Below are positions 1-30,979 of a stretch of DNA of 64,000 nt, piece by piece. A model generated the notes under the pieces. The model saw nothing but the letters and a program-made list of their open reading frames with translations. It searched no databases and was not told the DNA's origin. A program made the position numbers and the translations under genes. Positions within the stretch are counted from its first letter, which is position 1. The number at the start of each line of letters is the position of its first letter. This DNA comes from Cymodocea nodosa (Eukaryota; Streptophyta; Magnoliopsida; Alismatales; Cymodoceaceae), in assembly GCA_036874045.1 (NCBI GenBank), contig CM072339.1:17429501-17493500 (forward strand), written 5' to 3'.

Positions 1-2800
1 AAGCAATATTTATGAGCATCTTTGAATAGTGTTGGCCAATAAAACCCATATTGTAGAATTTTTGCAGTAGTTTTCCCTAAACCAAAATGCCCTCCACAAG
101 CTTGGTCATGACAGAAAGACAATATGCTCAGATATTCAGTTTTTGGAACACACCTCCTTAAAACCAGATCAGGACATTTCTTAAATAAGTATGGGTCTTC
201 CAAATAGTAATATTTTACTCTTGAGAAAAACAATTTCTTATCCTGTCTATTCCAATCCTTAGGTGTTAAACCAGTTACTAAGTAATTAATTAACTATGTC
301 TGCATACCAAGGCATTGTGTTGATGGTCATTAATTGTTCATCAGGAAAATTATCCTTAATTTCAATATTTGATTTTTCTATTTGTAATCTTGATAAATGA
401 TCTCCTACTACATTCTCACAACCTTTTTTATCTTTAATTTCTAGATCAAATTCTTGTAATAATAATATCCATCCGATCAATCTAGGTTTAGTCTCTTTTT
501 TCTTTATTAGATGTATTAAACCTGAATGATCCATGTATACTATCACTTTAGCTCCAATCAGATATGATCTAAACTTTTCTAAGGCAAACACAACAGTTAA
601 TAGTTCTTTTTTAGTAGTTGTGTAATTAACTTAAGCATCATTTAAGGTTTTTCTTGCATAATCAATCACTCTAGGAGATTTTTCTATCTTCTGTCCCAAC
701 ACTGCTCCTACAGCAAAATCAGATGCATCACACATTAATTCAAATGGATGGTTCCAATCAGGTGCTTGAATTATAGGAGTTGAAATTAAGCTAGTTTTAA
801 GTCTGAAAAATGCTTCCTTGCAATTTTTATCAAAGTTAAATGGAACATCTTTTAATAGATTAGTTAAAGGTCTAGCTATCTTACTAAAGTCTTTAATAAA
901 TCTTCTATAAAAACCAGCATGTCCTAGAAATGATCTAATATCTTTTATTGATTTAGGTCCTGGTAGATTAGAAATTACTTCTATTTTAGCTTTATCTACT
1001 TCCAACCCTTTCTTAGAAACAACATGCCCTAAGACTATTCCTTGTTTAACCATGAAGTGACATTTTTCCCAATTTAAAACCAGATTTTTTTCCACACATT
1101 GTTTTAATATTTGGTCTAAATTGCTTAAACAAACTTCATATGAGTTGCCATATACAGTAAAATCATTCATAAATATTTCCAAGAAATCTTCAGTCATTCA
1201 AGTAAATATGCCCTGCATACACCTTTGAAAGGTAGCTAGCACATTGCATAATCCAAATGGCATTCTCTTAAAAGCATAAGTTCCATTAGGATAGGTGAAA
1301 GTTGTTTTCTCTTGTTCCTCTAATGCTACTGGAATTTGATTATAACCAGAATACCCGTCTAGGAAACAAAAATATTCTTGCCCTGCTAATCTTTCCACTA
1401 TAGTGGTAAGTATTCTCGCCTGTCACGTGGGTGACCCAGGTTCGATCCTCGGCAACGGCGCCATAAAACTTGTTTGGTTTTTCCCAGCATTTGATCTATA
1501 AAAGGTCAGGGAAAATGATCTTTCCTAGTCACAGCATTCAACTTTCTATAGTCTATGCATACTCTCCAGCCTGATTGAATTCTAGTAGGTATCAAGTCTT
1601 GACTTTCATTCCTAATAACTGTTAATCTTGATTTCTTGGGAACTACAAGGATTGGACTAACCCACAAGCTATCAAAAATCGGATAAATTATGTCATTATC
1701 TAACCATTTCACTATTTCCTTCTTGACTACTTCTTTAAGGTTTGGATTTAATCTCCTCTCAAGAATTCTAACAGGTTTAGCATTCTCTTCTAAATATATG
1801 TGGTGACAACATAAAGTTGAACTTAACCTTTTTATATCAAACATAGTCCATCCTATTGCTTCTTTATAACTTTTTACTACATCTTTTAATTTAGCTATTT
1901 AATCCTCTTTTAAATCTGAAGCAATAATGATTGGACAGATTCGTTTCTCTTCCAGAAATATATAGGTTAATTCAAGAGGTAAATATTTCAATTCTAAATG
2001 TTGCCCATCAGAAGCTAAAGCTCCTAATTGAACATCATCATTTTCTAAATTAATTTCTTCCTGATCTCCTTCTATATTTATGCTTTCACTTTTCTCTAAA
2101 GTTTCAGAATTGATTTGCCTATTTAATTCTTCTTGAATCACATCTTCTAACATATCTCCTTCATCCTCTAAAAAGTCTATGGTATGTAAGGACATTTCTA
2201 ACTCCTCAAACCTTTCTGGTTTGAAAATATTTAATTGAGTATCCTCATTACCATATGCTAACTTCATTACTCTAGTTTTACAATTTATAACAGCCCCTGA
2301 TGTTGCTAAAAATGGTCTTCCCAAAATTAAAGATGTATCACTATTTTTATGCTTAATTTGTTGGGAATCCAAAATTACAGTATCAATAGGATATATAAAA
2401 TTTTTGATTTTAATTAAGACATCCTCTATTTTTCCTCTAAGGTATCTTATACTTCTACCAGCTAATTAAATAACCGTACTAGTAGGAGTTAAACCTTCTA
2501 ATCCTAAGGATGCAAATATATCACTTCGCATAACATTTATACCTGCACCTAAGTCTATTAAGGTTCTTTCTAGAATGGTATTTCCTATGGTGCATGATAT
2601 AAAAGGGATTCCAGGATCAGATAACTTTTTAGGAATTTGTGGCAGAAATAGGGAACTACTTTGCTCAACTAAAAAGACATTTCTAAGAACTTTTCGCTCT
2701 CTTTTCCTAGTACACCAATCCTTCAGAAATTTAGCACAAGGTGGCATTTTCTGCAATAGATCTAACAAAGGAATGTTAACTTGTACTTTTTCAAAAATTT
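1..2800 (-). pseudogene. Gypsy copy A: decayed pol (PR-RT-RNase H-IN start)
   Basis: This is the pol polyprotein of a Ty3/gypsy element of the Athila type, read right to left. The protease lies near 2,770-1,900, with the DLGA active-site variant usual in Athila and a later ILGRPFLAT motif. Reverse transcriptase covers about 1,845-630 (WRVCIDYRKLN, then MPFGLCN) and RNase H about 620-290 ([16 protein letters not shown], then DHLSRL). The integrase zinc-binding start ([13 protein letters not shown]) runs off the left edge. It is broken by stops, by frame breaks and by a foreign insertion at 1,398-1,485. The RT catalytic box reads FMND where sibling copies read FMDD, so a catalytic aspartate is lost. 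Family assignment rests on motif order and on the tRNA-Asp primer site at its 5' end. It cannot make a working enzyme as it stands. Confidence 0.93.
1398..1485 (+). pseudogene. tRNA-Asp(GTC) fragment fused to retroelement U5 cDNA
   Basis: Positions 1,399-1,460 match nucleotides 11-72 of plant tRNA-Asp: most of the D arm, the complete anticodon arm with anticodon GTC, the variable loop and T arm, and the 3' acceptor strand. Positions 1,461-1,463 are CCA, which plant tRNA genes do not encode. The next bases (1,464 to about 1,487) match the sequence beside the primer-binding site of gypsy copies A and D. The block interrupts the RT gene of copy A; sibling copies run through this place without it. 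Differences from the tRNA consensus as I recall it are transitions (for example GCGGG to GTGGG). The 5' acceptor strand is missing, so it cannot fold as a working tRNA. It looks like a primer tRNA plus its first cDNA bases, captured by template switching. Confidence 0.88.
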
Positions 2801-3790
2801 CTCTGATTTTTTCTTATTTTTCAGGTATTGTTTGTTGTAATCTTTCAGGATAGGGTGCTAAAGATTGTGATTTAAAAGATTCTTTTTCTTTCGTTTGATT
2901 TATTTGATCATTTTTAGCTTCATTAGCAGATTCAGATTATTCTTCAGTGATTTCTAGATTTTCAACTATTACATTTTCCTTATCATTTTGATTTTTACTC
3001 TTATCCACCTTCATATCATTTTCATTTTGAGTTCTTGGTGGTATATCAGTTCCAAATCTTAATATTACACATACATCTTCTAGATTTTCATTACTCTTAT
3101 GATGTTTTTGTATATCATTTTCATAATTATGATCTTCAATTGTTTTTAGTTTTAAAGTGCATTCTTTAAATTCTCTTGCATTAATATTTTCTGTTTGTTG
3201 TATATTTTGCAAATTATGCAGGTTTATAACATTATAATTTTCATTGTCTTGTTGCATAACTTGTATTTTCATTATATATTCATCCAATACTTTTAGTTTT
3301 CTTTCTAGATCATCTAATCTCATTGCATTCAATTTTTGATCAATTTTCATTATGGTTTTTTCAATTTCGTAAATTATATCCATTTTAGGTTCTGAATATG
3401 CTTCCTTATAGTTTAATTGGTTGACTTTTTGTTGATGACACATAAAGTATTCTAGTTTGTCCAGGTTTTGCTCTATACTACGCTCTAGTCTGTCATACCT
3501 ATCCCAAACTCCCGTGTCTCTCAACATATTACACATTCTATATTGACCATCAGCCAGTTGGGTAAACTATAGGATTCTCATACTCGGCTCTATTATATTG
3601 AGGATAATTCATTTGTTGTTCATGGGATCTAACCATCTGTAAATGTCTTAGTTTCAAACAATCAGAAATGTCATGTTCTTCAGAATTGCAGAATTCACAT
3701 ATTCTAATTACAGGTTTCAGAAATCTTTGAGCATAAGCATATGTCATATTCTCAATTACAGAAGAAAACACACAACACTCTGGCTATTAA
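2801..3790 (-). pseudogene. Gypsy copy A: gag C-terminal part with zinc knuckle
   Basis: Reading leftward from about 3,771, the first part carries a CX2CX4HX4C zinc knuckle (C-EF-C-NSEE-H-DISD-C) near 3,690-3,650. A charged helical region follows and leads into the protease. The nucleocapsid-type knuckle binds RNA in gag proteins. The usual N-terminal capsid (Retrotrans_gag) domain is absent: only about 70 bases separate the primer-binding site from the first knuckle residues. The same lack is seen in copies B2 and D, so it is a trait of the subfamily rather than a local deletion. Stops and frame breaks (for example near 3,540 and 2,937) show decay. Confidence 0.85.
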
Positions 3791-3838
3791 AACAAAACAG
3801 CTCTAACAATTGCTTATATTAATTCAATTCAATTCAAT

Positions 3839-3856
3839 TCCCCAGCAACGGCGCCA
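3839..3856 (-). other. Primer-binding site, tRNA-Asp (copy A)
   Basis: On the minus strand this 18-mer begins TGGCGCCGTTG and is complementary to the 3' end of tRNA-Asp including CCA, with one mismatch to the consensus. It marks the junction between the 5' LTR (to the right) and the internal region (to the left). Confidence 0.88.
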
Positions 3857-6098
3857 TAAAACTTATTTGCTTTTTCCCAGCATGACACCAGAATATCTAA
3901 TTAGATCTCCAATAACGTACCAGAAAAACTTGGATTTGTTACTTCTGTTTTTACTTAGTTAATTTATCTTTATGCCTATTCTTTTTCTTTAAGAAGTAAA
4001 CAAACAACCTTTAATACAATTTAGATATTAATTCCAATTTGTACTTTAACTGCAAGTGCATAGTGTCTATTGTATCAGTGTGCAAGTACAAGTCGATCCC
4101 ATAGGGAATTGTTTAAAAGTTTAGAACTGTTTGTTTGTTAATAATCAAATTTATATAGTCAATAAGCTCTCCGTTGAATTACAGTTAACTCAACAGATAA
4201 AGTTCGTTGAGTTATAGCTAACTCAATGGACTAACCTCGTGGACTTAAGTTAACTCCACGAGCCTGTCTTTTCTTTTTAATACTACTATTTACAGAAGAA
4301 TTCAACCAACCATTGGGCGATTCCATAGATTGTAAATAACATCAATTAAGCTCTTTAATGTTAATAAACACTGGATTTATCATTAAGTAATATTAACATT
4401 CAGATAATTCAAACAGTAACCATTAAAATCTTTAAGTATTTTGAACGAACCAATTTCAATAAATTGTAAAACTAAAACAAACATAAAACAATCACAACAC
4501 TGACAAAGATAACATTAATCACGATACAACACTCAAATACAACATACAATAGCAGATAAGTTGTTTTTGGTATTTTTGGTTTAATATGAATATGGAAATG
4601 GGCGAAAGGTGAAATGTAAAGTAATCTCAATCAACAGTAAATACTTCTGTCACTACATACGACACGATTACAGCACTGAAAATTAAACCACTTACAATCC
4701 TGTCTCCTCTCCCTATAGAATCGCGAGTCTAGAATTGCAAGATAATCTCCTCTTCAGCATACAGGCATCAACCCGAACTCAAGGCTAGAAGCTTTACGAT
4801 CTCTTGAAATATGAGTCGACGCTTGGTGAAAATGGCTTCCCTTCCTGCGACACGATCACTCCTCACAGTGGTTGTCAGGCACCGTGTGTTGCTCGGAATC
4901 GACCCGACATCTAGAAAGTGTTATCATAGACCTCCGTTGGTTGGCGATTAAGGTGGTGATGGTGGTGGTAACGATGGTTGGTGTGGTACTTTGGAGAATT
5001 GCCGATACTGCCTATAGAAAGTTCGGTGCTCCTCCTCTGTACACACTGGCCGTCCATCAATCACCCACACACACTTTACTTCTTTTTCTTCTTTTCTTTT
5101 ATATTTCTTCAGTAGTAACTATTTCTGCTTGAATGGTCGGTTGGATTTCCTTCATTCATATCAACGGCGATGATTTCTTCTCCTTGCGCAATACATGCAA
5201 TCGTGGTTTTTCTTCCAACTATTGTGTTTCTACAACCGCTACAGTGGCATATTAGAAAATAAATAGTCTGTGGAGTTATAGATAACTCAATGGACTTTCT
5301 TCGTTGATTTAACTATAAAACACATGCATAAATTTAACTATCCGATACTCAGGTGCATTTCGGATACTTACAAACTTAATTATTTGATGCTCAAATACAT
5401 TTCAGATAGATACAGATAACTCACTGATATATAACTTAAGTAAATCTACCAAATCTTGACACATGTTAGCAGCAGTTTAATAATAAAATACACATTTCGG
5501 AGAGTTACAGGTCTAACTATCCGATGTTTAGATGCATTTCGGATAGTTACAGCTAACTCACCGAAAGTCCACTTAAGTCACTTTACCAGAACATGACACA
5601 TGTCCTCAGCTATTTTATAAATAAAAAGAGATTTCGAAGGGTTGCACATATAACTATCTGATGCCTAGCTGCAATTTCGGATAGTTAGAGATAACTCAAC
5701 GAAAGTTCACTTAAGTCATGCATTATGGTTTTGACACGTGTACTTCAGGAAATAATAAAATATTCTTTTAAAACATAATTGTTCGGCAATTTAAACATAA
5801 CTATCCAACATGTTCGGTCTGTTAAACATAACCATCCAAAATATGTTCGGTATGTTAAACATAACTATCCGAAATATCAGAAAATTTGGATACTTAAGAA
5901 TTTCATAGCCTACAACTTACCGACAATTCAGAAATGTACTAAATTGACATTAATTCCCCAAAATTAAGCAGTAATTCTAATTAAAGCATATAATAGTGCA
6001 ATTATAACATAATGGTTTAATTCTTATATGATAAGCTAAATATTATGCAATTAACCATCATTTAATCGTTAATAATATGCACTTTTTCATTCTAAACA
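3857..6098 (-). repeat. Gypsy copy A 5' LTR
   Basis: The outer end is sharp. Reading leftward the LTR starts TGTTTAGAATGAAAAAG at 6,098, exactly where the host gag of element E breaks off; the same end closes the LTRs of B (18,828) and D (32,429). The inner end lies within about 30 bases of the primer-binding site and is not exactly fixed. The segment near 4,045-4,110 (TGCAAGTGCATAG..., then GTCGATCCCATAGGG) is typical of Athila LTRs. A TATA-like box (AATATAAAAGA on the minus strand) lies near 5,095-5,108. Many hyphenated palindromes lie at 4,171-4,262 and 5,270-5,720. The plus-strand ORF at 4,872-5,132 is an antisense shadow. Confidence 0.85.
4171..4262. repeat. Cluster of three hyphenated palindromes in LTR A
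   Basis: Three successive inverted repeats lie about 30 bases apart. The first (4,171-4,194) pairs CGTTGAATTA with TAACTCAAC. The second (4,204-4,229) pairs CGTTGAGTTA with TAACTCAATG. The third (4,236-4,262) pairs CTCGTGGA with TCCACGAG. Equivalent clusters occur in LTR D (about 31,290-31,385) and LTR B (about 16,916-16,990). Their role is unknown; they could be protein-binding sites or hairpin formers. Confidence 0.85.
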
Positions 6099-6506
6099 CT
6101 GTGTCTTTTAAAGCAAAAGGGATATATCTAAGTGTAATAGCATCTATACTCATGTTCGGCATTTTCATCATTTGACAAACTTCCTTATATTCTCTAAGGA
6201 AATAGTAGGCATCCTCTCTTTCTAATCCATGAAAATGTGGCAATTGACTAATATAATTAGATTTTAGTTCAAACCTATCTTCCTCAAAGTTTGGCAATCG
6301 AATACATGAAGGTTCATCAACTAATTCCGGATACAGAATTTCTCCTAATGGTTTTTCACTGGAGCAGTCATCTCTACGTTCTCTTTTAAAGAAAGGTTAG
6401 CTACACCCCAAAGAATTTCATTAAAGTCTAGTTCAGAAAATGTTTTAGTACGCCTTTGTGTTCTTACTAATCGTTTAGTGCTTAAAGAACGAGTCCATGT
6501 GCTCAT
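6099..6506 (-). pseudogene. Element E: gag N-terminal (capsid) fragment
   Basis: The minus-strand reading from an ATG at 6,506 (MSTWTRSLSTKRLV) runs, with stops and a frame break near 6,390-6,300, into a Retrotrans_gag-type start: LPHFHGLEREDAYYFLREY, then LRYIPFALKDTV. This matches the capsid start of Athila gag proteins (the usual pattern is LP.F.GLE.EDPY, then LF.F.LKD). The reading is cut at 6,099 by insertion of the LTR of copy A, and the rest lies beyond the left window edge. It is the only N-terminal gag domain among the gypsy sequences of the window. Whether E is a separate element or the far end of the B1/ORF3 element is not settled. Confidence 0.75.
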
Positions 6507-10310: not shown

Positions 10311-13172
10311 CTAAGTAAAGCTCGAGTAGTCCTCTACTCTGACTTCTTCTATAATTCCAAAAGAACTTTTTGGTATTTTCAGAATAGGTCTAAGTCTTTG
10401 TTCATTTACTTTAAATATATTCTGATTTTTAGGATTTTCAATCTCAATAGCTCCATAAGGATAAATATTTTGAACTATGTAAGGTCCTGCCCATCTAGAT
10501 CTTAATTTTCCTAAATGGTTATGGAGTCTAACCATATAAAGATATACTTCTTGTCCTATTTCAAAGCTTTTTGGAATAATTTTCCTATCAAGCTAGAATT
10601 TTATTTTCTCTTTTTCTCTTACAGTCTTCGAATAAGCTTCATTTCTAAATTCTTCTAATTCAATTAATTGCATTTTCCTATTTTTAGAAGCTTGATTTAA
10701 ATTAGTGTTCAGAGTTTTTAATGCCCAATAAGCTTTATGTTCTATTTCAACAGGTAAATGAAAACTTTTTCCATAAACTAGCCTAAAAGGTGACATACCT
10801 AAGCCTGTCTTATAAGCAGTTCTATAAGCCCAAAGTGCATCTATCAATCTATTAGCCTAATATGTTCTAGTAGGATTTACTACTTTTTCTAAGATTAACT
10901 TAATTTATTTGTTTGCACTTTCTACTTGTCCACTTGTTTGTGGATAATATGATGTTGCAATTTTGTCGTTTACTCCATATTTCTTCATTAAGGCTTTAAA
11001 ACTTCTATTACAGAAATGAGTTCCTCTATCATTGATAATAGCTTTAGGTATTCTAAATCTGGCAATTATATTGGTTCTTATAAATTGTATTACCACTTTG
11101 TTGTCATTAGTTTTTGTAAGAATAGCTTCTATCCATTTAGATACATAATCCACCCCCAACAATATGTAATTAAATTGATTAGACATAGGAAATGGACCCA
11201 TAAAATCTATTCCCCACACAACAAAGATTTCAACCTCAACAATAGGATTAAGAGGCATCATATTCCTCTTTGATATTCTTCTTATTTGTTGACATCTTAA
11301 ACAATTTAAGCAATATTTATGAGCATCTTTGAATAGTGTTGGCCAATAAAATCCACATTGTAGAATTTTTACACTAGTTTTCCCTCAACCAAAATGCCCT
11401 CCACAAGCTTGGTCATGACAGAAAGACAATTTGTTCGGATATTCAATTTCTGGAACACACCTCCTTAAAACCAGATTAGAACATTTCTTAAATAAGTATG
11501 GGTCTTCCCAATAGTAATATTTTACTCTTGAGAAAAACCATTTCTTATCCTGTCTATTCCAATCCTTAGGTGTTAGACTAGTAGCTAAGTAATTAACTAT
11601 GTCTACATACCAAGGTATTGTGTTGATGGTCATTAATTGTTCATCAGGAAAATTATCCTTAATTTCAATATTTGATTTTTCTATTTGTAATCTTGATAAA
11701 TGATCTGCTACTACATTCTCACAACCTTTTTTATCTTTAATTTCTAGATCAAATTCTTGTAATAATAATATCCATCGGATCAATCTAGACTTAGTTTCTT
11801 TTTTTGCTATTAGATGTTTTAAAGCTGAATGATCCGTGTATACTATTCTTTAGCTCAAATCAGATATGATCTAAACTTTTCTAAGGCAAACATAACAACT
11901 AATAGTTCTTTTTAGTAGTTGTGTAATTAACTTGAGCATCATTTAAGGTTTTGCTTGCATAATGAATCACTCTAGGAGATTTTTCTATCTTCTGTCCCAA
12001 CACTGCTCCTACAGTAAAATTAGATGCATCACACATTAATTCAAATGGATGACTCTAATCAGGTGCTTGAATTATAAGAGTTGAAATTAAGCTAGTTTTA
12101 AGTCTTTAATAGGAGTTGAATTATAGGAGTTAAATGGAACATCTTTTAATAGATTAGTTAAAGGTCTAGCTATTTTGCTAAAGTCTTTAATAAATCTTCT
12201 ATAAAAACTAACATGTCCTAGAAATGATCTAATATCTTTTATTGATTTAGGTTCTGGTAGATTAGAAATTACTTCTATTTTAGCTTTATCTACTTCCAAC
12301 CCTTTCTTAGAAACAACATACCCTAAGACTATTCCTTGTTTAACCATGAAGTGACATTTTTCCTAATTTAAAACCAGATTTTTTTCCACACAGCGTTTTA
12401 ATATTAGGTCTAAATTTTTTAAACAAACTTCATATGAGTTGCCATATACAGTAAAATCATCCATAAATATTTCTAAAAAATCTTTAGTCATTCTAGTAAA
12501 TATGCCTTGCATACACCTTTGAAAGGTGGCTGGTGCATTGCATAATCCGAATGGCATTCTCTTAAAAGCATAAGTTCCATTAGGACAGGTGAAAGTTGTT
12601 TTCTCTTAATCCTCTAATGCTACTGGAATTTGATTATAACTTGAATACCCGTCTAGGAAACAAAAATATTCTTGCCCTACTAATCTTTCCAGCATTTGAT
12701 CTATAAAAGGTAAGGGAAAATGATCTTTCCTAGTTACAGCATTCAGCTTTCTATAGTCTATACATACTCTCCAGCCTGATTGAATTCTAGTAGGTATCAA
12801 GTTTTGACTTTCATTCTTAATAACTGTTAATCCTAATTTCTTGGGAACTACATGGATTAGACTAACCCATGAACTATCAGAAATCAAATAAATTATGTCA
12901 TTATCTAACCATTTCACTATTTCCTTCCTAACTACTTCTTTAAGGTTTGGATTTAATCTCCTCTCAATAATTCTAACTGGTTTAGCATTCTCTTCTTGAA
13001 TCACATCATCTAACATATCTCCTTCATCCTCTAAAAAGACTATGGTATGTAAGGGCATTTCTAACTCTTCAAACCTTTCTGGTTTGTAAATATTTAATTG
13101 ATTATCCTCATTGCCAGAAGATAACTTCATTACTCCAGTTTTACAATTTATAAAAACTAGCAGTAATCTCAA
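10311..13172 (-). pseudogene. Gypsy copy B1: pol (PR end-RT-RNase H-integrase)
   Basis: This Athila-type pol copy runs from the protease C-terminus (about 13,170) to the integrase C-terminus (10,311). The integrase core at 11,261-10,905 keeps all three catalytic acids: WGIDFMG, NDRGTHF and GQVES, with 35 residues between the second aspartate and the glutamate (DD35E). The C-terminal GPY-type module (KLRSRWAGPYIV) is at about 10,535-10,311. RT keeps FMDDFTVYG (12,557-12,363). Defects include a deletion fusing protease to RT at the short shared string QEE (about 12,990), a deletion with slipped filler in the RT/RNase H link (about 12,085-12,135) and scattered stops. Its 5' neighbour is copy B2 in the same orientation, not its own gag and LTR. 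Confidence 0.9.
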
Positions 13173-13250: not shown

Positions 13251-15560
13251 CTTAATTTCAATATTTGATTTTTCTATTTGTAACTTGATAAATGATCTAC
13301 TGCTACATTCTCACAACCTTTTTTATCTTTAATTTCTAGATTAAATTCTTGTAATAATAATATCCATCGAATCAATCTAGGTTTAGTCTATTTCTTTGCT
13401 ATTAGGTGTTTTAAAGTTGAATGATCTGTGTATACTATTACTTTAGCTCCAATCAAATATGATCTAAACTTTTCTAAGGCAAACACAACCGCTAACAACT
13501 CTTTTTCAGAAGTTGTATAATTAACTTAAGCATCATTTAATGTTTTACTTGCATAATGAATCACTCTAGGAGATTTTTTTATCTTTTGTCTTAGCACTGC
13601 TCCTACAGTAAAATCAGATGCATCACACATTAATTCAAATGGATGGCTCCAATCAGGTGCTTGTATTATAGGAGTTGAAATTAAGCTAGTGTTAAGCTTG
13701 AAAAATGCTTCTTTGCAATTTTTATCAAAGTTAAATAAGACATCTTTTAATAGATTAGTTAAAGGTCTAACTATTTTGCTAAAATCTTTAATAAATCTTA
13801 TATAAAATCTAGCATGTCCTAGAAATGATCTAATATCTTTTACTGATTTAGGTTCTAGAATATTAGAAATTACTTCTATTTTAGCTTTATCTACTTTCAA
13901 CCATTTCTTTGAAACAACATGTCCTAAGACTATTCCTTGTTTAACCATGAAGTGACATTTTTCCCAATTTAGAACTAGACATTTTTCCACACAGCGTTTT
14001 AATACTTGGTCTAAATTGTTTAAACACACTTCATATGAAGTTCCATAAATAGTAAAATCATCCATAAATATTTCTAAAAAATCTTCAATCATTCTAGTGA
14101 GTATGCCTTACATATACCTTTGAAAGGTGGCTGGTGCATTGCATAATCTGAATGGCATTCTCTTAAAAGCATAAGTTCCATTAGGACAGGTGAAAGTTGT
14201 TTTCTCTTGATCCTCTAATGCTATTAGAATTTGGTTATATCCTGAATACCCGTCTAGGAAACAAAAATATTCTTGCCCTACTAATTTCTTTAGCATTTGA
14301 TCTATAAAATGTAAGGGAAAATGATCTTTCCTAGTCACAACATTTAGCTTTCTATAATCTATACACACTCTCCAGCTTGATTGAATTCTAGTAGGTATCA
14401 AGTTTTGACTTTCATTCTTAATAACTGTTAATCCTAATTTCTTGGGAACTACATGGATTAGACTAACCCATGAGCTATCAGAAATCGAATAAATTATGTC
14501 ATTATCTAACCATTTCACTATTTCCTTCCTAACTACTTCTTTAAGGTTTGGATTTAATCTCCTCTCAAGAATTCTAACTGGTTTAGCATTCTCTTCTAAA
14601 TATATGTGGTGACAACATAAAGTTACACTTAACCCTTTTATATCAATCATAGTCCATCCTATTGACTCTTTATAAGTTTTTACTACATCTTTTAATTTAG
14701 AAATTTGATGCTCTTTTAAATCAGAAGCAATAATGATTGAACATGTTCATTTTTCTTCCAGAAATATATAGGTTAATTCAGGAAGTAAAGGTTTTAAATC
14801 TAAATGTTGACCATCAAAAGCTAGCACTCCTAATTGAACATTTTCATTTTCTATATTAATCTCTTCTTGATCTCCTTCTATATTTATGCCTTCACTTTCT
14901 TCTAAAGTTTCAGAATTGAGTTGCCTATTTAATTCTTCTTGAATCACATCATCTAGTATATCTCCTTCATCCTCTAAAAACTCTATAGTATGTAAGGACA
15001 TTTCTAACTCTTCAAACTTTTTTGGTTTGAAAATGTTTAATTGAATATCCTCATTACCATATGCTAACTTCATTACTCTAGTTTTACAATTTATAACAGC
15101 CCTTGATGTTGCTAAGAATGGTCTTCCCAAAATTAAAGACGTATCATGATTTTTATGCTTAATTTGTTGGGAATCCAAAATCACAATATCAATAGGATAT
15201 ATGAAATTTTTTATTTTAATTAAGACATCCTCTATTTTTCCTCTAGGGTATCTTATACTTCAATCAGCTAATTGAATAACAGTCCTAGTAGGGATTAAGC
15301 CTTCTAATCCTAAGGATGCAAATATATCACTCAACATAACATTTATACCTGCACCTAGGTCTATTAAGGTTCTTTCTAAAATGGTATTTCCTATGGTGCA
15401 TGGTATAACAAGGATTCTAGGATCAGATAACTTTTTAGGAATTTATGGCAAAATTAGGGAACTACTTTGCTCAGCTAAAATGACTTTCCTTAAAACTTTT
15501 TGCTCTCTTTTCTTAGTACATCAATCCTTAAGAAATTTAGCACAATGTGGCATTTTCTAC
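13251..15560 (-). pseudogene. Gypsy copy B2: pol (PR-RT-RNase H)
   Basis: This second Athila-type pol copy lies directly upstream of B1 on the same strand. The protease region is at about 15,560-14,750 (ILGRPFLATSRAVINC). RT is at 14,650-13,900, with FMDDFTIYG near 14,070. The RNase H part runs to about 13,255, where it stops within the [16 protein letters not shown] stretch. There is no integrase; the copy is cut at the B1 junction. The link after LND A has a stop where copies C and D have glutamine, the same change as in copy A. Confidence 0.9.
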
Positions 15561-16620
15561 AATAAGTCTAACAAAGGAATGTTAACTTGTAATTTTTCAA
15601 AAAAAATTTTAATTTTTTCTTGCTTTTTAGGAAATGTTTGTTGTAATCTTTCAGGATATGGTGCTAATGATTGTGATTTACAAGATTCTTTTTCTTTCAT
15701 TTCATTCGTTTGATCATTTTTAGTCTCATTTTCAGATTCAAATTTTTCTTCATTGATATCTATGTTTTTAGATATTACATTTTTATTATCATTTTGAATT
15801 TTGTTCTTATCCACCTTCATGTTACTTTCTTTTTGAATTCTTGGTGTTATATCAGTTCTAGATCTTAATGTTATACATACATCTTCCAAATTTTCATTAC
15901 TTTCATGATGTTTGTGTATTTCATTTTCATGATTATGATCTTCAACTGTTTTTAGTTTTAAATTGCATTCTTTAAATTCTATTGTATTGGTATTTTCTTT
16001 TGTTTGTATGTCTTTCAAATTATGCACTTCTATAACATTAAAATTTTCATTTGTGTTTTCTTGATGCATAACTTGTAATCTCATTGTAAATTCATCTAAT
16101 GCTTTTAGTTTTCTTTCCAAATCATCTAATCTCATTGTATTCAATTTTTGATCAATTTTCATTATGGTTTTTTCAATTTCATAAATGATATCAATTTTAG
16201 GTTCTGAATATTCTTCCCTATAGTTTAATTGGTTGACTTCCTGTTACTGACACATGTATTGTTCCAGTTTATCCATGTTTTGCTCTAAGCTACGCTCCAA
16301 TCTGTTATACCTATCCCAAACTTGCTTGTCTCTAAACATATTACACATTCTAAACTAACCATTAGTTGGGTAAACTATAGGATTCTCATACTCAACCGTA
16401 TTATATTGAATATAATTCATTTGTTGTTCATGTGATTTAACCATCTGCAACTGTCTTAGTTTCAAACAATCAGAGATGTCGTGACCTTCCAAATTGTAGA
16501 ATTCACATATGCTAACTATAAGTTTCAAAAATCTTTGAGCATAAACATATGTCATATTCTCAATTATAGAATAAAACACACAACACTCCTCCTGCTATTA
16601 AAACAAATCAACACTCACAA
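15561..16620 (-). pseudogene. Gypsy copy B2: gag C-terminal part
   Basis: The open frame at 16,162-15,557 carries the charged C-terminal gag region (MKIDQKLNTMRLDDLERKL) and runs on into the PPCAKFLKDWC-type start of the protease region. The zinc knuckle at 16,510-16,465 is damaged (C-EF-Y: the second cysteine has become tyrosine). As in copies A and D, the capsid domain is missing and the frame starts within about 80 bases of the primer site. Confidence 0.82.
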
Positions 16621-16636
16621 TTGCTTAGCTTCTCAA

Positions 16637-16654
16637 TCCTTGGCAACGGCGCTA
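16637..16654 (-). other. Primer-binding site, tRNA-Asp (copy B2)
   Basis: This matches the tRNA-Asp 3' end over 18 bases with three mismatches, all reading T for C on the plus strand. Its position just outside the gag start matches copies A and D. Confidence 0.75.
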
Positions 16655-18828
16655 GAAATACTTGTCTTAGATTTGCTTACTTTTGTTTGATAGACTTGTT
16701 TAATTTGTCTTTATGCTTATATCAATAATTACTTTTAGAATTAAATAAACAACCTTTCACACAAATTAGATATTAATTCCAATTTGTATTTTAACTACAA
16801 GTGCACAATGTATATTGTATTTGTGTGCAAGTACAGGTCGATCCTATAGAGATTGAGTAAGAATTGTGTACTGTTCTGATTTTTATATTGGAGTATAAAT
16901 GTGTTTAGTAAGTACTCCGTTGAGTTACAGTTAACACAACGAACTTAGTTTGTTGAGTTATGGCTAACTCAACGGATTGATCTCATGGACTATTTACAAT
17001 GGAATTCAGCCAACCATTGGGCGGTTCCACAGAATGTAAATAACATCAATTAAGCTCTTTAATGTTAGTTAATATTAGATTTATCATTAAGCAACACTAA
17101 CATTCAGATATTTCAAATAGTAACCATTAAAATCTTTAAGTATCTAGAACGAATCAATTTTAGTAAATAATAAAACTATTTTCTATTTTGTGAATCAAAC
17201 AAATATAAAACATTCACAATACTGACAATGATAATATTAATCACGATACAAAACAAACAATACAACACTTTAATACTAAATGTAAACATAGATAATTTGT
17301 TGTTTTTGGTATTTTTGTTTTGATATGTTCTTGAAGATGAATGAAAGGTGAAATATAAAAATCTCTATCGATAGTAAAAACTTCCGTCACTACATGTGAC
17401 GCGATTACACGACTGGAAATTTAATCACTTATAATCTTGTCTCCTCTCCCTATAAAATCGCGAATCCAAAATTGTAAGATGATCTCCTCTTCAGCATACT
17501 AGCATCAACCCAAAACTAAGGCTAAAAGCTTTACGATCTCCTAAGATATGAGTCGGTACTTGGTGAAAATGACTTCCCTTCCCACGACGCGATCACTCCT
17601 CACAATGGTTGTCAGTCATCGTGTTTGGCTCTGAATCGACCCAACATCAGGAAAGTATCCTCACAGACCTCTGATGGTTGGTAATTTTGGTGGTGGTGTG
17701 GAACTTTCGACGCTGCTTGTAGTTAGCGTAGTCCTCCACCTCGACACACACACTTTCTTCGTCTTTCTCCTCTTCTTTTATATTTCTTTCAGTAGTAACT
17801 ACTTTTGCTTAAATGATCGATTGGATTTCCTTCATTCATATCAATGATGGTGATTTCTTCTTCATTCCACAAGTGAATTCCTATGTGATACATGCAATCG
17901 TGGTTTTCCTTCGAATTTCCTATTTCTGCAACTGCTACAATGGCATATTAGTCTTCGTTTTAGTCAAATACTTATCCTTTAAGTCCTGTAAAAACTCGAA
18001 CACTTAACGTAACTCTTCGAGTTTTTTGCACCTGCAAAACACGTGATTGAACATAGAAAACTTATCTGTTCGTTAGTCATTTTATAAAACTCGAACAGTT
18101 ATCTAACTCTTTGATTTTCAGTATCAAACACACATGGAAAACACGTGACAACTTAAAACATTAAAAACACACGTGCAAATAACTTAACTATACAAGTTTT
18201 TAACATAACTCTTCGACAAAAATGAAACGTTAACTATCCAAAAGTTACTTTTCCTATTTCTACATAACATTGACACAACGCGTTACTCTAGTTTATATTC
18301 CATTAACTCAACGCGTATAGTTATGCTAACTTAACGAGTTAAACATGTGCAATTCACGTGATATACTAAAGCATTTAAATTCAACATGTGCATAATTCTA
18401 ATGTAACGAGTTCAAATATTTCAGATACTTACAAACCCAACTATTCGATGTTCAGATGCATTTTGGATTGTTACCAAATAACTTAACGAAAATCCACTTA
18501 AGTCATGCATTGATGTTTCAACACGTGTACTCCTAGAAATAATAAAATATTCTTCTATCGTTAAAAACATAACTGTCTGGTACATGCAATATAACTCTCC
18601 GAAATAATAGAAAATTTGGATACTTAGGAATTTCAAAGCTTGTAATTTACCGATAGTTCAAAAATATACTTAATTAACATTAATTTCCTGAAATTATGCA
18701 GATTCCTTCATTAAAGCATATAACAGTGCAATTATAACATAATGGCTTAATTCTCATATGATAAGCTAAATATTATGCAATTAACCATCATTTAACCCTT
18801 AATATTATGCACTTTTTCATTCTAAACA
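16655..18828 (-). repeat. Gypsy copy B 5' LTR
   Basis: Same LTR family as A and D: the Athila-like TGCACAATGTATATTG / CAGGTCGATCC region at 16,800-16,845, palindromes at 16,916-16,990, and a TATA-like run near 17,775. The outer end (18,828, ...TTCATTCTAAACA on the plus strand) abuts the gag of copia Z. Compared with A it lacks roughly 60-100 bases beside the primer site. The middle and outer parts are clearly diverged, so this is an older or different subfamily copy. Confidence 0.83.
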
Positions 18829-19541: not shown

Positions 19542-19652
19542 GCTTTGATACCAATTGTTAGGATCGTATAGCTCACTAGAGGGGGGGTGAATGGTGATCT
19601 ATTTGTAATTTTAACTTCTTTTTAAACTTAACTAGTTGATTCAATTAATCTA
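19542..19652 (-). repeat. Copia Z primer site and first part of its 5' LTR
   Basis: Positions 19,542-19,553 are the complement of TGGTATCAAAGC, the initiator tRNA-Met primer site of copia elements. The LTR starts at 19,556 (TGTTAGGATCG) and is interrupted after 19,652 by element K. The last five bases (19,648-19,652, ATCTA) are the left target duplication. The LTR resumes at 33,234. Confidence 0.88.
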
Positions 19653-21237
19653 TGTTGAGTATTTTGTTTTGATGATGTGTGCTAAACGAATGTAATCATA
19701 TTTACTCAATTACTATTGTTTGTGAAAATAAATTAAGAACATCAATTAATACAGAAAAAGTTTACTGATATAAATACTTGTCTGTAATGGATATGAGATT
19801 ATACCAAGATAAATAACTAGTCGTTAAGTTATACTAACTTTTCATTTAACTAAAATATTAAGTTAACATGTGTTTTTTATTGTAAAACATGATATGTTTT
19901 AAAGTTATATTTTTTGTATCATGTATAGTGCACGTTAAGACAACTCATTGAGTTAATGCGTTATTTGTATGAAGGTCACATGAGAACTTGTTGAGTTATA
20001 GGCTTAAAGGTTAAAATAAGTCACGTGAGAACTCATTGAGTTAGTGAACAAAAGGTTAAAATGAAGAGACGAACTCGTTAAATTAGTATTATGCACGTGG
20101 TGAAATTAAAGTTTACGAATGTTATATTGTATCACATGGGTTGCACATGTTTAACTCGTTAAGTTAACATAACTACATACATTGAGTTGCTATATTGAAC
20201 ACTAAAGCAACACGTTAGGTTAGCGTTATAAACTTAAAGTTATTATTATTGCATGTGGCAAATACGTTATTGTTTAAAACATTTATTTATTACTGGTTCG
20301 AAGAGTTATTAGTAACACAATGAAGTTAGTTTGTTGAGTTAACTGTAACACCACGAAGCTAATTTGTTGAGTTATTTGTAATACCACAAACTTAGTTTGT
20401 TGAGTTAGCTACAGTACTTATCATGTGATTTGGCACGTGATGAACTCATTGAATTAGATACATTAAGTTATAAATGTACTTGTTTTACTTGTTTAATTAA
20501 CATTAACATAACAACTTGTTATTACACTTGATGGAAAATTTTGGACGAGAAAGTTTATTTTGCAAGAAATTTTTTTAAGATCTAGGATTGATGATTAAAG
20601 AAAATTTGAATGGAAAACATGGGTCAGAACATGTATATTTCGATGAAGGAAAAAGAAAAGACGTGAATAGTGGAAAATTGATAGTGATTAAATGTGGAGG
20701 ATATGCATGAAATGAAGATACAGTATAAAAGGCATAAAATTCTCATTGATCAATTATCCATGCACAACAAACGAAATATATTTTCAAGGATAAAAAAAAA
20801 ACACCTCTCTAGGGAAAAGCTCTCAGATAAAAGAAAATTCAGTGAAGTAGAGAAAGTCAAATATATGTCACTGAAGATTTGAAGAAGAATAATAAAGTAA
20901 ATTTGGTGAAGCAAAGAAAGTCAGATATTTGTCACTAAAGAATTGCAGAAGAAGAAGAAGAAGAAAAATCTCAAACAGTGATAAATGTTCTAAATTCCAC
21001 AAATTAGTTTTCTTTATTTGTAGTTGTGAAATTGATTAAATGAAATATGGTATCATTATATAATTGCATCTACAATTTCTGAGGAGAATTGAATTGTATA
21101 TTGTAATTGAAACCTTGAATAAAATGATTTGATTAAAATAGTGTCTCAACTTGTTTTTAATATTGAAGTTTCAATTATTTTTGAAAATATTGAAAAACAC
21201 AATTCACCCCCCTCTTATATAGCCATTTGATCCTACA
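19653..21237 (+). repeat. Element K 5' LTR
   Basis: 1,585 bp, from TGTTGAGTATTTTG to ...GATCCTACA. Repeated words of the type AACTCGTTGAGTTA and CACGTG-like words occur throughout 19,920-20,460. A TATAAAAGG-like promoter box lies near 20,725. The same sequence recurs at 24,415 onward (3' LTR), inverted at 21,369-22,989 and, diverged, at 35,758-37,210. Confidence 0.9.
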
Positions 21238-21251: not shown

Positions 21252-23974
21252 ATCAAACAAGCATTGAACAAGTTATTGCAGATGCACTTGAAAATATTGA
21301 GGCAATAACTAGTTTAGAAGCTAGATTGTCTAGAGTAGCAACTATTAATAAAGACAAGACTTCAAAAGTGTAGGATCGTATGGCTACACAAGAGAGGGGT
21401 GAATTGTGTTTTTCAACATTTTCGTTTATAATTGAAACTTCAATAATTAAAAACAAGTCGAGACACTATTTTCATAAAATCATTTTTATTCAAGGTTTCA
21501 ATTACAATATACAATTTAATTCTCCTCAGAAATTGTAGATGCAATTATATCTCGATACCATGTATCATCTAAACAATTTCATAACTACAAATAGAGAAAA
21601 CTAATTTGCAGAATTTAAAACATTTCTCCATATTTGAGATCTTTCTTCTTCTTTTTCTTTTTGTTCTTCAGCAATTCTTCAATGACAAATATATAGTCTT
21701 TCTCTGCTTCACTGAATTTGCTTTCTCTTAATACTTCAAATCTTTAGTGACATAAATCTTACCTTTTTATACTTCACTGAACTTTCTTCCACCTGAGAGC
21801 TTTTCGCCGAAGAGGTATTTTTGATCTTTGAAAAGATTTTTCTTTTAGTGTGCAGGGATAGTTTGATCCCTGAAAACATTTTTCGTTTGATGTGCAGGGA
21901 TAGTTTGATCAATGAGAATTCTATGCATTTTATACTGTATCTTCATTTAATGCATATCCTCCATGTTTAATCACTACTAGTTTTCCACTTCTTCACGTCT
22001 TTTCTTTTTCCTTCATCGAAATACACATGTTCTGACCCACATTTACATTTCGAATTTTGTTTAATCATCAGTCCTAGATCTTTGAAAAATTTTCTATAAA
22101 ATAAACTTTCTCATCCAAAATTTTTCATTTGTGTAATAAGTAGTCGTTACTTTAATGTTAACTAAACGAGTAACACAAGTATATATATAACTTAACATTT
22201 CTAACTTAACGAGTTCCTCATGTGCCAATTCACGTGACAAGTACTGTAGCTAACTTAACGAACTAAGTCTGTGGTGTTACGCTAACTCAACAAACCATCT
22301 CCATGGTGTTACAATAACTCAACCAACCAACTCCATTGTGTTACAAATAACTCAACGAACTAGTAATAAATAAATATTTTTATAATAAGAATTTTACCAC
22401 GTGCAAAAATAACAACTTAAGTTTATAACGCTAACCTAACGCGTTGCCTTAGTGTTCAATATAGCAACTCAATGTGTTTAGTTATGTTAACTTAACGAGT
22501 TAAACATGTGCACCTCATGTGATACAATATAACATTCGTAACTTATAATTTCACCACGTGTATAACACTAACTTAACGAGTTCGTCTCTTCTTTTACTCA
22601 CTAACTTAGCGAGTTCTCACGTAACCTATTTTAACCTTTAAGCCTCTAACTTAATGAGTTCTCACGTGATCTCTATATAAATAACACTCTAACTTAACGA
22701 GTTGTCTAAATGTGCACTATACATGATACAGAAAATATAACTTTAAAATATATCATGCTTTTCAATAAAAATACATGTTAACTTAATGTTTAGTTAAATG
22801 AGAAATTAATGCAATGAAATGACTAGCTATTAACTTAGTATAATTTCTGATCTAATACAGATAAGTATTTATATCAGTAAGCTTTTTCTGTATTAATTGA
22901 TGATTTTAATTTCTTTTCATAAGCAATAGTAATTGAGCAAATATGATTATTTTCATTTAGCACACATCATCAAAACAAAATACTCAACAAGAAGAGCTTT
23001 ATGTTGATCAACCTATTTTAGAATCTATAGAACCAAAGTCTAAGAATTCACAATATATTGAAATAAAAATATCTGTTGGAGAAAATGAAGAATTACAGAC
23101 AGATAACACAATTGTTGAATTTGTGGAAAATTTGAACTCTAAATATTCTATAAAAACTAAATGTATAGATGTAGTGAATATTGAAAATATTCCTTATACT
23201 ATTGAAGTTGAAGAATCAAGCTTACTTGAGCAGCTTCAAGAAAATATTTTGATAGAGGAACACAATCACATTCATTTTGAAGAAGAGATTCTTGAAGAAC
23301 ACTTAAATTCTGAATCAAGGCTTTAGGTATCACCTTCTTCATATACAACAATAAACATTCAAGGTAATTCAATATATTTTAGGTCTGAGGATGCATTGCA
23401 AAAATATAATAATTTGATTACTTGTCAAATTTTGCATGTTCGACCAATAAAATTTAAAAGTTTATTGGAAATAAAATCTTGATTTAAGTTTCAAGGCTTA
23501 ATGCAATTCTTACTAGTTGGAACACAATGGAAGCAATATAAAGAGCTTATTGCAACTTTTTACAGCAATCTGGTACAAAATGAAAATCTTTTGAAAACTC
23601 AAATAACTCAACAGGAGTTTACTTTATCTCCTGAATTGATTTTTGAAGTTTTGGGATTAAGGAATGAAGGTGTTGTTGTTACAAATAGATTTGACATTGT
23701 TAGATAATTAAACTTATCTGACTAGCCCTCTAAAACTAAAGGCATGAGAGCATCTAGTATCAAAGATTTGCAAAAATACTAGTCCATGCAACAACTACAG
23801 CAACAACAACCACCTGACCTTACACAACAACAACAAAACTATTTAGATCAAGCACAACAGCAACTAGATCTACCTCTTACCTTAGATGTAGTGCTAAATG
23901 AAATCAGAAATGATTTTAGGCATCTAGGAAATAAAATTTGTAATGCTATTAGTGATATCATTAGGAAGGATAGA
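21252..23974 (+). pseudogene. Element K internal ORF (extra ORF), split by an LTR insertion
   Basis: The coding region lies in two blocks, 21,252-21,368 (EQVIADALENIEAITSLEAR) and 22,990-23,974, separated by the inverted LTR. If the insertion and one copy of its target site are ignored, the frame continues across. The second block is acidic, then has a globular part: FRSEDALQKY near 23,380, RPIKFKSLLEIKS, FKFQGLMQFLL, ATFYSNLVQ, LSPELIFEVLGLRNEG near 23,630-23,680. A Q-rich stretch (23,786-23,880) and a helical tail follow. Five in-frame stops each lie one C-to-T change from CAG, CAA or CGA. The globular part aligns with the third ORF at 7,469-9,729. It is neither gag nor pol; function unknown. 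Confidence 0.75.
21369..22989 (-). repeat. Solo LTR of the K family, inverted, inside K
   Basis: 1,621 bp in minus orientation, from TGTAGGATCG on the plus strand to ...ACTCAACA. It is flanked by AAAAG (21,364-21,368) and AGAAG (22,990-22,994), a target duplication with one mismatch. With no internal sequence, it is best read as a solo LTR left by LTR-LTR recombination. Together with the K 5' LTR it forms a large, diverged inverted repeat. Confidence 0.85.
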
Positions 23975-24414: not shown

Positions 24415-24815
24415 TATTGAGTATTTTGTTTTGATGATGTGTGCTAAACGAATGTAATCATATTTACTCAATTATTATTATTTGTGAAAGTAAATTAAGA
24501 ACATCAATTAATACAGAAAAAGTTTACTGATATAAATACTTCTTTGTAATGGATTTAAGATTATACCAAGATAAATAACTAGTCGTTAAGTTATACTAAC
24601 TTTTCATTTAACTAAAACGTTAAGTTAACATGTGTTTTTTATTGTAAAACATGATATGTTTTAAAGTTATATTTTTTGTATCATATACAATGCACGTTAA
24701 GACAACTCGTTGATTTAGTGCGTTATTTGTATAAAGGTCATGTGAGAACTCGTTGAGTTATATGCTTAAAGGTTAAAATAGGTCATGTGAGAACTCGTTG
24801 TGTTAGTGAACAAAA
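24415..24815 (+). repeat. Element K 3' LTR, first part
   Basis: Matches 19,653-20,053 of the 5' LTR. The opening TG has mutated to TA. It breaks at 24,815 (...GTGAACAAAA) where gypsy C begins. The LTR resumes at 32,430, having lost the equivalent of 20,054-20,432 (about 379 bases). Confidence 0.88.
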
Positions 24816-26380: not shown

Positions 26381-29300
26381 TCGAGCTATGTAAGGTCTTA
26401 CCCATCTAGATCTTAATTTTCCTAGATGGTTATGGAGTCTAGTCATATAAAGATATACTTTTTGTCCTATTTCAAAGCTTTTTGGAATAATTTTTCTATC
26501 ATGCCAAAATTTTATTTTCTCTTTTTCTTTTACAGTCTTCGAATAAGCTTCATTTCTAAATTCTTCTAATTAAATTAATTGTATTTTTCTATTTTCAGCA
26601 GCTTAATTTAAATTAGTGTTCAAAGTTTTTAATGCCCAATAAGATTTATGTTCTATTTCAGCTGATAAATGACAACCTTTTCCATATACTAGCCTAAAAG
26701 GCGACATACCTAAGCTCATCTTTTAAGCAGTTCTATAAGCCCATAGTGCATCTATCAATCTATTAGCCTAATCTGTACTTGTAGGATTTACTACTTTTTC
26801 TAAAATTAACTTAATTTGTTTGTTAGCACTTTCTTCTTGTCCACTTGTTTACGGATGATATGATGTTGCAATTTTGTGGTTTACTCCATATTTCTTCATT
26901 AAGGCTTCAAAACTTCTATTACAGAAATGAGTTCCTCTATCACTGATAATAACTTTAGGTATTCCAAATCTAGCAAATATATTTGTTCTTATAAATTGTA
27001 TTACCACTTTGTTGTCATTAGTTTTTGTAGGAATAGCTTCTATCTATTTAGATATATAATCCACTCCCAACAATATGTAATTAAATTGATTAGACATAGG
27101 AAATGAACCTATAAAATCTATTCCCCACACATCAAAGATTTCAACCTCAACAATAGGATTAAGAGACATCATATTCCTCTTTGATATTCTTCCTATTTGT
27201 TGACATCTTAAACAACTTAAGCAATATTTATGAGCATCTTTGAATAGTGTTAGCCAATAAAACCCACATTGCAGAATTTTTGCAGCAATTTTCCCTGAAC
27301 CAAAATACCCTCCATAAGCTTGGTCATGACAGAAAGACAATATGCTCGGATATTCAGTTTCTGGAACACACCTCCTTAAAACCAGATCAGGACATTTCTT
27401 AAATAAGTATGGGTCTTCCCAATAGTAATATTTTACTCTCGAGAAAAACAATTTCTTATCCTATCTATTCCAATCCTTAGGTGTTAAACTAGTTACTAAG
27501 TAATTAATTGTGTCTGCATACCAAGGCATTGTGTTGATGGTCATTAATTGTTCATTAGGAAAATTATCCTTAATTTCAATATTTGATTTTTCTATTTGTA
27601 ATCTTGATAAATGATCTGCTACTACATTCTCACAACCTTTTTTATCTTTAATTTCTAGATCAAATTCTTGTAATAACAATATCCATCGGATCAATCTAGG
27701 TTTAGTCTCTTTTTTCTTTAGTAGATGTTTTAAAGATGAATAATCCGTGTATACTATCACTTTAGCTCCAATCAGATATGATCTAAACTTTTCTAAGGCA
27801 AACACAACAACTAATAGTTCTTTTTCAGTAGTTGTGTAATTAACTTGAGCATCATTTAAGGTTTTGCTTGCATAATGAATCACTCTAGGAGATTTTTCTA
27901 TCTTCTGTCCCAACACTACTCCTACAGCAAAATCAGATGCATCGCACATTAATTCAAATGGATGGTTCCAATCATGTGCTTGAATTATAGGAGTTGAAAT
28001 TAAGCTAGTCTTAAATCTGAAAAATACTTCCTTGCAATTTTTATCAAAGTTGAATAGAACATCTTTTAAGAGATTAGTTAAAGGTCTAACTATCTTGCTA
28101 AAGTCTTTAATAAATCTTCTATAAAAATCAGCATGTCCTAGAAATGATCTAATATCTTTTACTGATTTAGGTTCTAGTAAATTAGAAATTACTTCTATTT
28201 TAGCTTTATCTACTTCCAACCCTTTCTTAGAAACAACATGCCCTAAGACTATTCCTTATTTAACCATGAAGTGACATTTTTCCTAATTTAAAACCAGATT
28301 TTTTTCCACACAGCGTTTTAATATTTGGTCTAAATTGCTTAAACAAATTTCATATGAGTTGCCATATACAGTAAAATCATCCATAAATATTTCTAAGAAA
28401 TCTTCAGTCATTCTAGTAAATATGCCCTGCATACACCTTTGAAAGGTAGCTAGCGCATTGCATAATCTAAATGGCATTCTCTTAAAAGCATAAGTTCCAT
28501 TAGAACAGGTGAAAGTTGTTTTCTCTTGATCCTCTAATGCTACTGGAATTTGATTATAACTTGAATACCCATCTAGGAAAAAAAAAAATTCTTGCCCTGC
28601 TAATCTTTCCAGCATTTGATCTACAAAAGGTAAGGGAAAATGATCTTTCCTAGTTACAGCATTCAGCTTTCTATAGTCTATACATACTCTCCAGCTTGAT
28701 TGAATTCTAGTAGGTATCAAGTCTTGACTTTCATTCCTAATAACTGTTAATCCTGATTTCTTGGGAATTACATGGATTGGGCTAACCCACGAGCTATTAG
28801 AAATCGAATAAATTATGTCATTATCTAACCATTTCACTATTTCCTTCTTGACTACTTCTTTAAGGTTTGGATTTAATCTCCACTCATGAATTCTAACATG
28901 TTTAGCATTCTCTTCTAAATATATGTGGTGACAGCATAAAGTTGAACTTAACCCTTTTATATTAGTCATAGTCCATCCTATTGCTTCTTTATAACTTTTT
29001 ACTACATCTTTTAATTTAGCTATTTGATCCTCTTTTAAATCTGAAGCAATAATGATTGGACAGGTTCGTTTCTCTTCCAGAAATATATTCAGGAGGTAAA
29101 GGTTTTAATTCTAAACGTTGTCCATCAGAAGCTAGAGCTCCTAATTGAACATCATTATTTTCTAAATTAATTTCTTCCTGATCTCCTTCTATATTTATGC
29201 TTTCACTTTCCTCTAAAGTTTCAGAATTGATTTTCCTATTTAATTCTTCTTGAATCACATCTTCTAACATATCTCCTTCATCCTCTAAAAAGTCTATGAT

Positions 29301-30900: not shown

Positions 30901-30961
30901 TAAAACAAAATAGCTCTAACAGTTGCTTATATTAATTCAATTCAATTCTAGTCAATTCAAT

Positions 30962-30979
30962 TCCCCGGCAACGGCGCCA
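30962..30979 (-). other. Primer-binding site, tRNA-Asp (copy D), perfect
   Basis: All 18 bases (minus strand TGGCGCCGTTGCCGGGGA) are complementary to the 3' end of plant tRNA-Asp. This identifies the primer of the whole gypsy family and supports the reading of the tRNA chimera at 1,398-1,485. Confidence 0.93.

Follow-up and report, generated by a model that had tools for sequence, protein, structure and literature searches.

A tRNA-Asp, CCA and U5 insert in the reverse transcriptase gene of a Ty3/gypsy-type plant retrotransposon: a possible fossil of faulty reverse transcription

The element family and its copies

The window, the whole 64-kb stretch of DNA that was analysed, is probably from a flowering plant: of the best 120 protein matches listed for each of two of its frames, those that give an organism are to flowering plants. 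It carries an LTR retrotransposon family in the form of several decayed copies, detected on the minus strand when the window is compared with itself. The copies, together with the main features of copy A, which carries the insert described below, are as follows.

1-6098, minus strand: copy A, whose 3' end lies outside the window
about 10464-13153, minus strand: copy B2, from the window self-comparison
13251-18828, minus strand: copy C, from the window self-comparison
about 26375-32429, minus strand: copy D, from the window self-comparison
286..1898, minus strand: reverse transcriptase (RT)/RNase H region of copy A by Pfam, broken by the insert and by stops
3839..3856, minus strand: primer binding site (PBS) of copy A, 18 nt complementary to the 3' end of tRNA-Asp, with one mismatch to a presumed plant reference
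3864..6098, minus strand: 5' LTR of copy A; outer edge common with C (18828) and D (32429), inner edge putative

Copy A, like the rest of the family on the minus strand, is an LTR element of Ty3/gypsy type. Pfam matches to RVT_1 and RT_RNaseH are found in three of nine pieces from copy A and its surroundings; the piece at 1509-1898 has no match of its own, and its counterpart in copy D does match. Reverse transcriptase, RNase H and integrase domains (RVT_1, RT_RNaseH, rve and Integrase_H2C2) are also detected in pieces of B and D. The domain order is Ty3/gypsy-like, with RNase H followed by Integrase_H2C2 in a single frame at 25369-26385.

The same tRNA 3' sequence occurs at the PBS of copy A (3839-3856) and of copy D (30962-30979). 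On the plus strand, the inner LTR edge reads tRNA-Asp 3' end, CCA, TAAAACT, TGTTT..., the spacer being 7 nt. The LTR probably ends in ...AAACA, which would give 5' LTR edges of TGTTTAG...CAAACA. Use of tRNA-Asp among non-chromoviruses is described in PMC6317226 (this and the other accessions cited here stand for the parts of the papers that were available). Together with general background on these elements, it suggests a putative place in the Athila clade. In the self-comparison of the 64-kb window no 3' LTR of the family of copy A is seen; copy A runs past the window. The outer LTR edge, ...TCTAAACA on the plus strand, is common to A, C and D, and the bases beyond it differ in each, so that the three are separate insertions. 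For the same reason the possibility that they are segmental duplicates of a single insertion was rejected. An open reading frame at 6058-6396 on the minus strand was considered as the gag of copy A and discarded, since it straddles the outer LTR edge at 6098 and is mostly target DNA. It has no Pfam match and is presumably akin to the N-terminal region of a gag of Athila type. With its outer LTR edge inside this gag-like frame, copy A seems to be nested in another element.

Other rearrangements were observed in the window. For example, the RNase H/integrase part of D includes a near-tandem direct repeat of 1563 bp (24816-26378 and 26494-28056, 97.4% identical), whose halves are closer to one another than the element copies are among themselves. 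Copy B2 is without a stretch equivalent to about 1792-2127 of A, and its bases 12991-12996 (in copy B2, 12991-13153) can be aligned with either side of the gap. An LTR segment of about 800 bp (5040-5844) is present in A and partly in C, and is absent from D (32175-32177). The LTR of C (16666-17701) shares about 77-83% identity with the LTRs of A and D; for pol the figure is about 89-91%. A large inverted repeat (19649-20795 and 21862-22992, 85% identical) has partial copies at 24417-24815 and 36589-37210. A direct repeat of about 1.3 kb (49561-50843 and 53756-55063, 86% identical) has no match to the studied element in the self-comparison.

Structure of the insert

Inside the RT gene of copy A there is a net gain of 89 bp at 1398-1486, the sole indel of at least 10 nt between A and D over 1-2100 of A. 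Read on the plus strand, the region consists of CTTTCCA, C, tRNA-Asp from position 11 with CCA, TAAAACT, TGTTTGGTTTTTC, CCAGCAT and TTGATC. The parts are:

1391..1397, minus strand: RT bases that flank the insert on its left (plus-strand CTTTCCA), pairing at 6/7 with the tRNA D-loop TGGTAAG
1398..1398, no strand: junction base C, where the empty site has G and the presumed tRNA reference also has G (position 10)
1399..1463, plus strand: tRNA-Asp(GUC), whose 62 bases begin at position 11 and end with the discriminator (standard 73), followed by CCA
1464..1470, minus strand: 7-nt spacer that separates PBS from LTR (plus-strand TAAAACT)
1471..1483, minus strand: terminal LTR bases (U5 end) read as minus-strand cDNA, the LTR edge being putative
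1484..1490, minus strand: CCAGCAT, the right join, common to copy A U5 and the RT gene
28606..28615, minus strand: empty site of D (plus-strand TTTCCAGCAT)

An earlier note on this DNA had described 62 tRNA-Asp bases followed by CCA and by about 24 bases of U5, as a block lacking in the other copies. The tRNA is borne out: 1399-1463 matches plant tRNA-Asp(GUC) from T11 to CCA at 61/65 positions, where the reference is one that we take to be the plant sequence. The 24 bases do correspond to the sequence that neighbours the primer site, but seven of them are spacer and not U5; the U5 portion amounts to 13-20 nt in minus-strand cDNA order. The block has no counterpart in D, B2 or C, which are all the other copies in the window that span the site; a fourth such copy, corresponding to the B1 of the note, was not found. 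In D and B2 the uninterrupted target is CTTTCCAGCATTTGATC, and in C the site is diverged and intact.

Evidence that does not depend on this reference is weaker and agrees with it. The anticodon loop, CTGTCAC (GTC), starts at 1420. Matches in phage genomes (15 listed of 16 records, with E up to 1 and some duplicate entries) coincide in 13/15 cases with an annotated tRNA-Asp, the identities being 74-78% and the E values a weak 0.01-0.6. The Rfam tRNA family aligns to 1397-1452 from model position 9 with 15.8 bits, under its gathering score of 29 (E 0.33), and an Rfam scan of 1000-2000 gave no match up to E 1. ARAGORN finds no tRNA gene in the window. E. coli genomes contain no match to the insert, and exact-pattern scans of viral and prokaryote genome contigs, collections not expected to contain plant DNA, gave 0 matches. 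RNA folding lends no support, with 170/200 shuffles equally or more stable than the insert (z 0.88). Like the negative results of ARAGORN, of the wider Rfam scan and of the E. coli comparison, this speaks against an intact tRNA gene. The tRNA of the insert is the one called for by the PBS of the element; its identity as tRNA-Asp comes from the presumed plant reference and the annotated phage matches.

The tRNA 3' end with CCA continues directly into a copy of PBS-proximal sequence (1399-1483 compared with the PBS/U5 of A and D). Tried against the PBS/LTR regions of both copies, as had been proposed, the 41 nt leading from the tRNA 3' end into U5 are 92.7% identical to D (30962-31002) and 90.2% to A (3839-3879). 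The tRNA, CCA, spacer and U5 are contiguous and have the order and strand of a tRNA-primed cDNA, which supports the note on this point.

The right join does fall on CCAGCAT, a 7-nt microhomology of the copy A U5 with the RT gene that had already been pointed out; in D the U5 is CCCAACAC. This is one of only three 7-mers found in both the U5 side and pol (about 60 and 600 nt). The left join is a 20-bp near-palindrome, CTTTCCACTA/TAGTGGTAAG, with 9/10 pairs. Homology of 7 nt occurs in 0.08% of random joins (about 60 nt of U5 side by 600 nt of pol) and an equally good palindrome in 14/21,756 (0.064%), the regions of the palindrome null including the real empty sites of D, B2 and C, and both statistics being post hoc, picked after the joins had been seen. 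The target has lost no base, and at most CCA or CCAG (3-4 nt) is repeated. On the left the flank extends as far as CTTTCCA, and on the right it resumes within CCAGCAT, which places both joins at one point of the target. A small insertion made by integrase with target duplication was rejected: only CCA/CCAG could be a repeat, and the tRNA side is without an LTR end.

The four tRNA mismatches are all C>T or G>A, with two in each of the contexts CG and CHG; the 62 tRNA positions comprise 25 in CG/CHG, 14 in CHH and 23 that are A or T. Such changes at CG/CHG are the decay pattern of methylated cytosine in silenced plant DNA, so that at its entry the insert probably copied the tRNA faithfully. Changes private to copy A number 12/411 in the flanks, six of them C>T or G>A. 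Since the 4/62 substitutions of the insert are of the same order, it is old, though not datable.

Origin of the insert

The tRNA part runs 47 nt past the 18-nt PBS, beyond A58, and ends at position 11 (or 10). The claim that the tRNA was copied well past position 58 therefore stands as to extent, but there is no trace of copying across a methylated A58: the base (1445) is unaltered, and nothing in the sequence points to the copying of a modified base. The insert would agree equally well with an unmethylated tRNA as template, or in part with a tRNA gene. Since every PBS also contains CCA and the last 15 bases of the tRNA, only positions 11-58 must derive from the tRNA or its gene.

Known stops on primer tRNAs bear on this extent. 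In HIV, plus-strand synthesis halts mainly at m1A58; on an unmodified tRNA it proceeds to the 5' end, and A58 is passed when the m1A58 enzyme is mutated (PMC13191261). For human swab samples, a table in the same paper includes m1A9 in tRNA-Asp(GUC). If synthesis were blocked at m1A9, the copy would end at position 10, which would fit the end of the insert. A 2017 review (PMC5372732, in the part available) places eukaryotic m1A9 only in animal mitochondrial tRNAs, and the available part of PMC11301382 has mitochondrial and other cases only. For m1A9 in plants, the open-licence literature, by title and start of abstract, shows no report on the point among the matches listed. In Ty3, a gypsy element, the plus strand normally takes in 12 nt of the tRNA before synthesis stops, and the tRNA is then removed by cleavage (PMC5371799); in yeast Ty1/Ty3 the primer sequence is not inherited (PMC5371799, PMC7472051). 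Measured by these elements, the insert is unusual in the amount of primer that was kept.

A tRNA-primed intermediate is very probably the source of the insert. How it came to lie in the RT gene can be read in several ways. The preferred one, to which we give about an even chance, is that the insert is a fossil of faulty reverse transcription, left by a detour of plus-strand synthesis in the lineage of copy A before integration. The growing plus strand, within the RT gene and with ...ATGCTGG at its end, would have slipped via the 7-nt microhomology to the U5 end of minus-strand DNA still bearing its tRNA-Asp primer. It would then have copied U5, the 7-nt spacer, CCA and the tRNA to about position 11, far beyond the usual stop near A58. 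Finally it would have rejoined the RT template where it had departed, and the chimeric cDNA would have been integrated as copy A. In this detour we infer which strand and which enzyme were at work, that integration came later, and that copying stopped near positions 9-11.

The earlier note had proposed that a nascent tRNA-cDNA switched template into the RT gene. The microhomology at the right join agrees with such a switch, but a one-way jump yields the right join only. The left join lies at the same target nucleotide with nothing lost, so a second, linked event is needed, and with both joins at one point a single strand that leaves and returns is preferred over a one-way jump. The contiguous tRNA, CCA, spacer and U5 is the structure of a normal early intermediate. 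Recipient and donor are of the same element family, which fits events within one particle, and a target without loss fits departure and return. With A, C and D being separate insertions, a change in a single copy before integration is natural. There is a precedent for the first switch: in vitro, tRNA(Lys-3)-primed HIV cDNA moves unfinished from U5/R to internal gag, a transfer termed homology-independent (PMC10986323). Against the detour stand the Ty3 stop after 12 nt, the unaltered A58, the small part of the insert (tRNA positions 11-58) that must come from outside the element, and the unproven status of m1A9 in plants. Moreover, the left join requires one unexplained base or an extra fold-back step, and the sequence is compatible with an event before or after integration.

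The main rival, possible though on the unlikely side, places the event after integration: copy A would have been broken in the RT gene, and repair would have used or ligated a stray fragment of tRNA-primed cDNA. Insertion without target loss and with microhomology at the joins is typical of end-joining with filler and is found here, and the similar load of substitutions in the insert (4/62) and private changes in the flanks (12/411) also agrees with such a capture. However, the shared family of recipient and donor then becomes a coincidence, an objection weakened by how the finding was noticed, and tRNA-linked cDNA has to enter the nucleus. A route through the minus strand, which we regard as improbable, would account for every base, including C1398 and the near-palindrome, which is equalled in 0.064% of random joins. 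A minus strand on RT would pair its end CTTTCCA with the tRNA D-loop (UGGUAAG) and copy positions 15-11, use the self-complementary TATA to turn round onto a plus-strand tRNA copy that had been extended too far, copy through CCA, spacer and U5, and re-enter RT at CCAGCAT. This takes more steps and requires both an over-extended plus strand and a free tRNA template, and the palindrome that recommends it was found post hoc.

The faithfully copied A58, with only four transitions at CG/CHG relative to the presumed tRNA reference, would also be explained by two DNA donors. In that case repair or replication copied an integrated U5-PBS, and a switch within the 15 nt that PBS and tRNA gene have in common led into a nuclear tRNA-Asp gene. 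The common stretch makes the switch possible, but an extra donor and the switch itself are required and the end at tRNA position 11 has no special reason; this origin is quite improbable. An ordinary feature or an artefact is still more improbable. The sub-threshold Rfam alignment (15.8 bits) is what speaks for a tRNA gene or tRNA-derived SINE, a candidate rejected on structure: the sequence is cut at position 11, the 5' strand of the acceptor is missing, ARAGORN is negative, spacer and U5 are attached as a tail, and there is neither a clear target duplication past CCA/CCAG nor a 3' tail of another kind. An assembly or library join, which the note had named as a refuting alternative, was not borne out; divergence from D is 65/1393 to the left of the insert and 55/1386 to the right, and such like values on both flanks argue against a join.

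Meaning and comparison with known systems

The insert is real and well preserved. It is a single event with no known function, and its value is that of a record. The junction of tRNA and cDNA is a fleeting intermediate; a genomic copy would show that the enzyme of a plant element could copy a 65-nt part of its primer, and at which place a strand took the wrong course. A wider reading is doubtful: in a plant gypsy lineage the primer tRNA would sometimes stay uncut and be copied almost whole, and the over-extended product would re-enter coding sequence. The end by A9 would then record a methylation block, and such scars would form an archive of tRNA modification and failed strand transfers. If scars of this kind recur, their ends would show how far primer tRNAs are copied in vivo and where modifications stop the copying, in hosts without a retrotransposition assay. 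Tra­nsfer RNA-derived SINEs have been proposed to have begun as tRNA-linked strong-stop DNA, an origin on which such scars bear.

Among the matches listed, the open-licence PMC literature, by title and start of abstract, contains no report of a genomic tRNA-CCA-U5 fossil in an LTR retrotransposon. The closest likeness is in the order of parts: the tRNA-primed minus-strand strong-stop intermediate of LTR retroelements also has primer tRNA, CCA, spacer and U5 in succession. That intermediate is normally transient (PMC5371799), whereas the insert has 65 nt of tRNA with CCA fixed in a genome. The in vitro HIV transfers from tRNA(Lys-3) likewise join premature U5 cDNA to internal coding sequence; those cDNAs have large deletions, in contrast to the insert, which is lossless, lies in a plant genome and includes tRNA sequence (PMC10986323).

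Other associations of tRNA with retroelements have been described. A tRNA-Gly copied by reverse transcription and found next to an HIV provirus is similarly a near-full tRNA with CCA that lacks its first few 5' bases and has short homology at its ends. It is a non-primer tRNA outside the LTR in a human cell line, whereas the insert is continuous with PBS/U5 (PMC12220202). Chimeric tRNA/LINE-1 insertions, reported at 21 loci, also join a tRNA to retroelement cDNA. They differ in being LINE target-primed and mostly antisense tRNA halves, without PBS/U5 in the part of the paper available, and have duplications of 9-19 bp in the cases checked (PMC13174262). The Helenus TRIMs carry tRNA-like sequence in an LTR retroelement as well. 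Their tRNA-like LTRs are a feature of a propagating family, possibly derived from a SINE, whereas the insert is a private scar in pol (PMC10886601).
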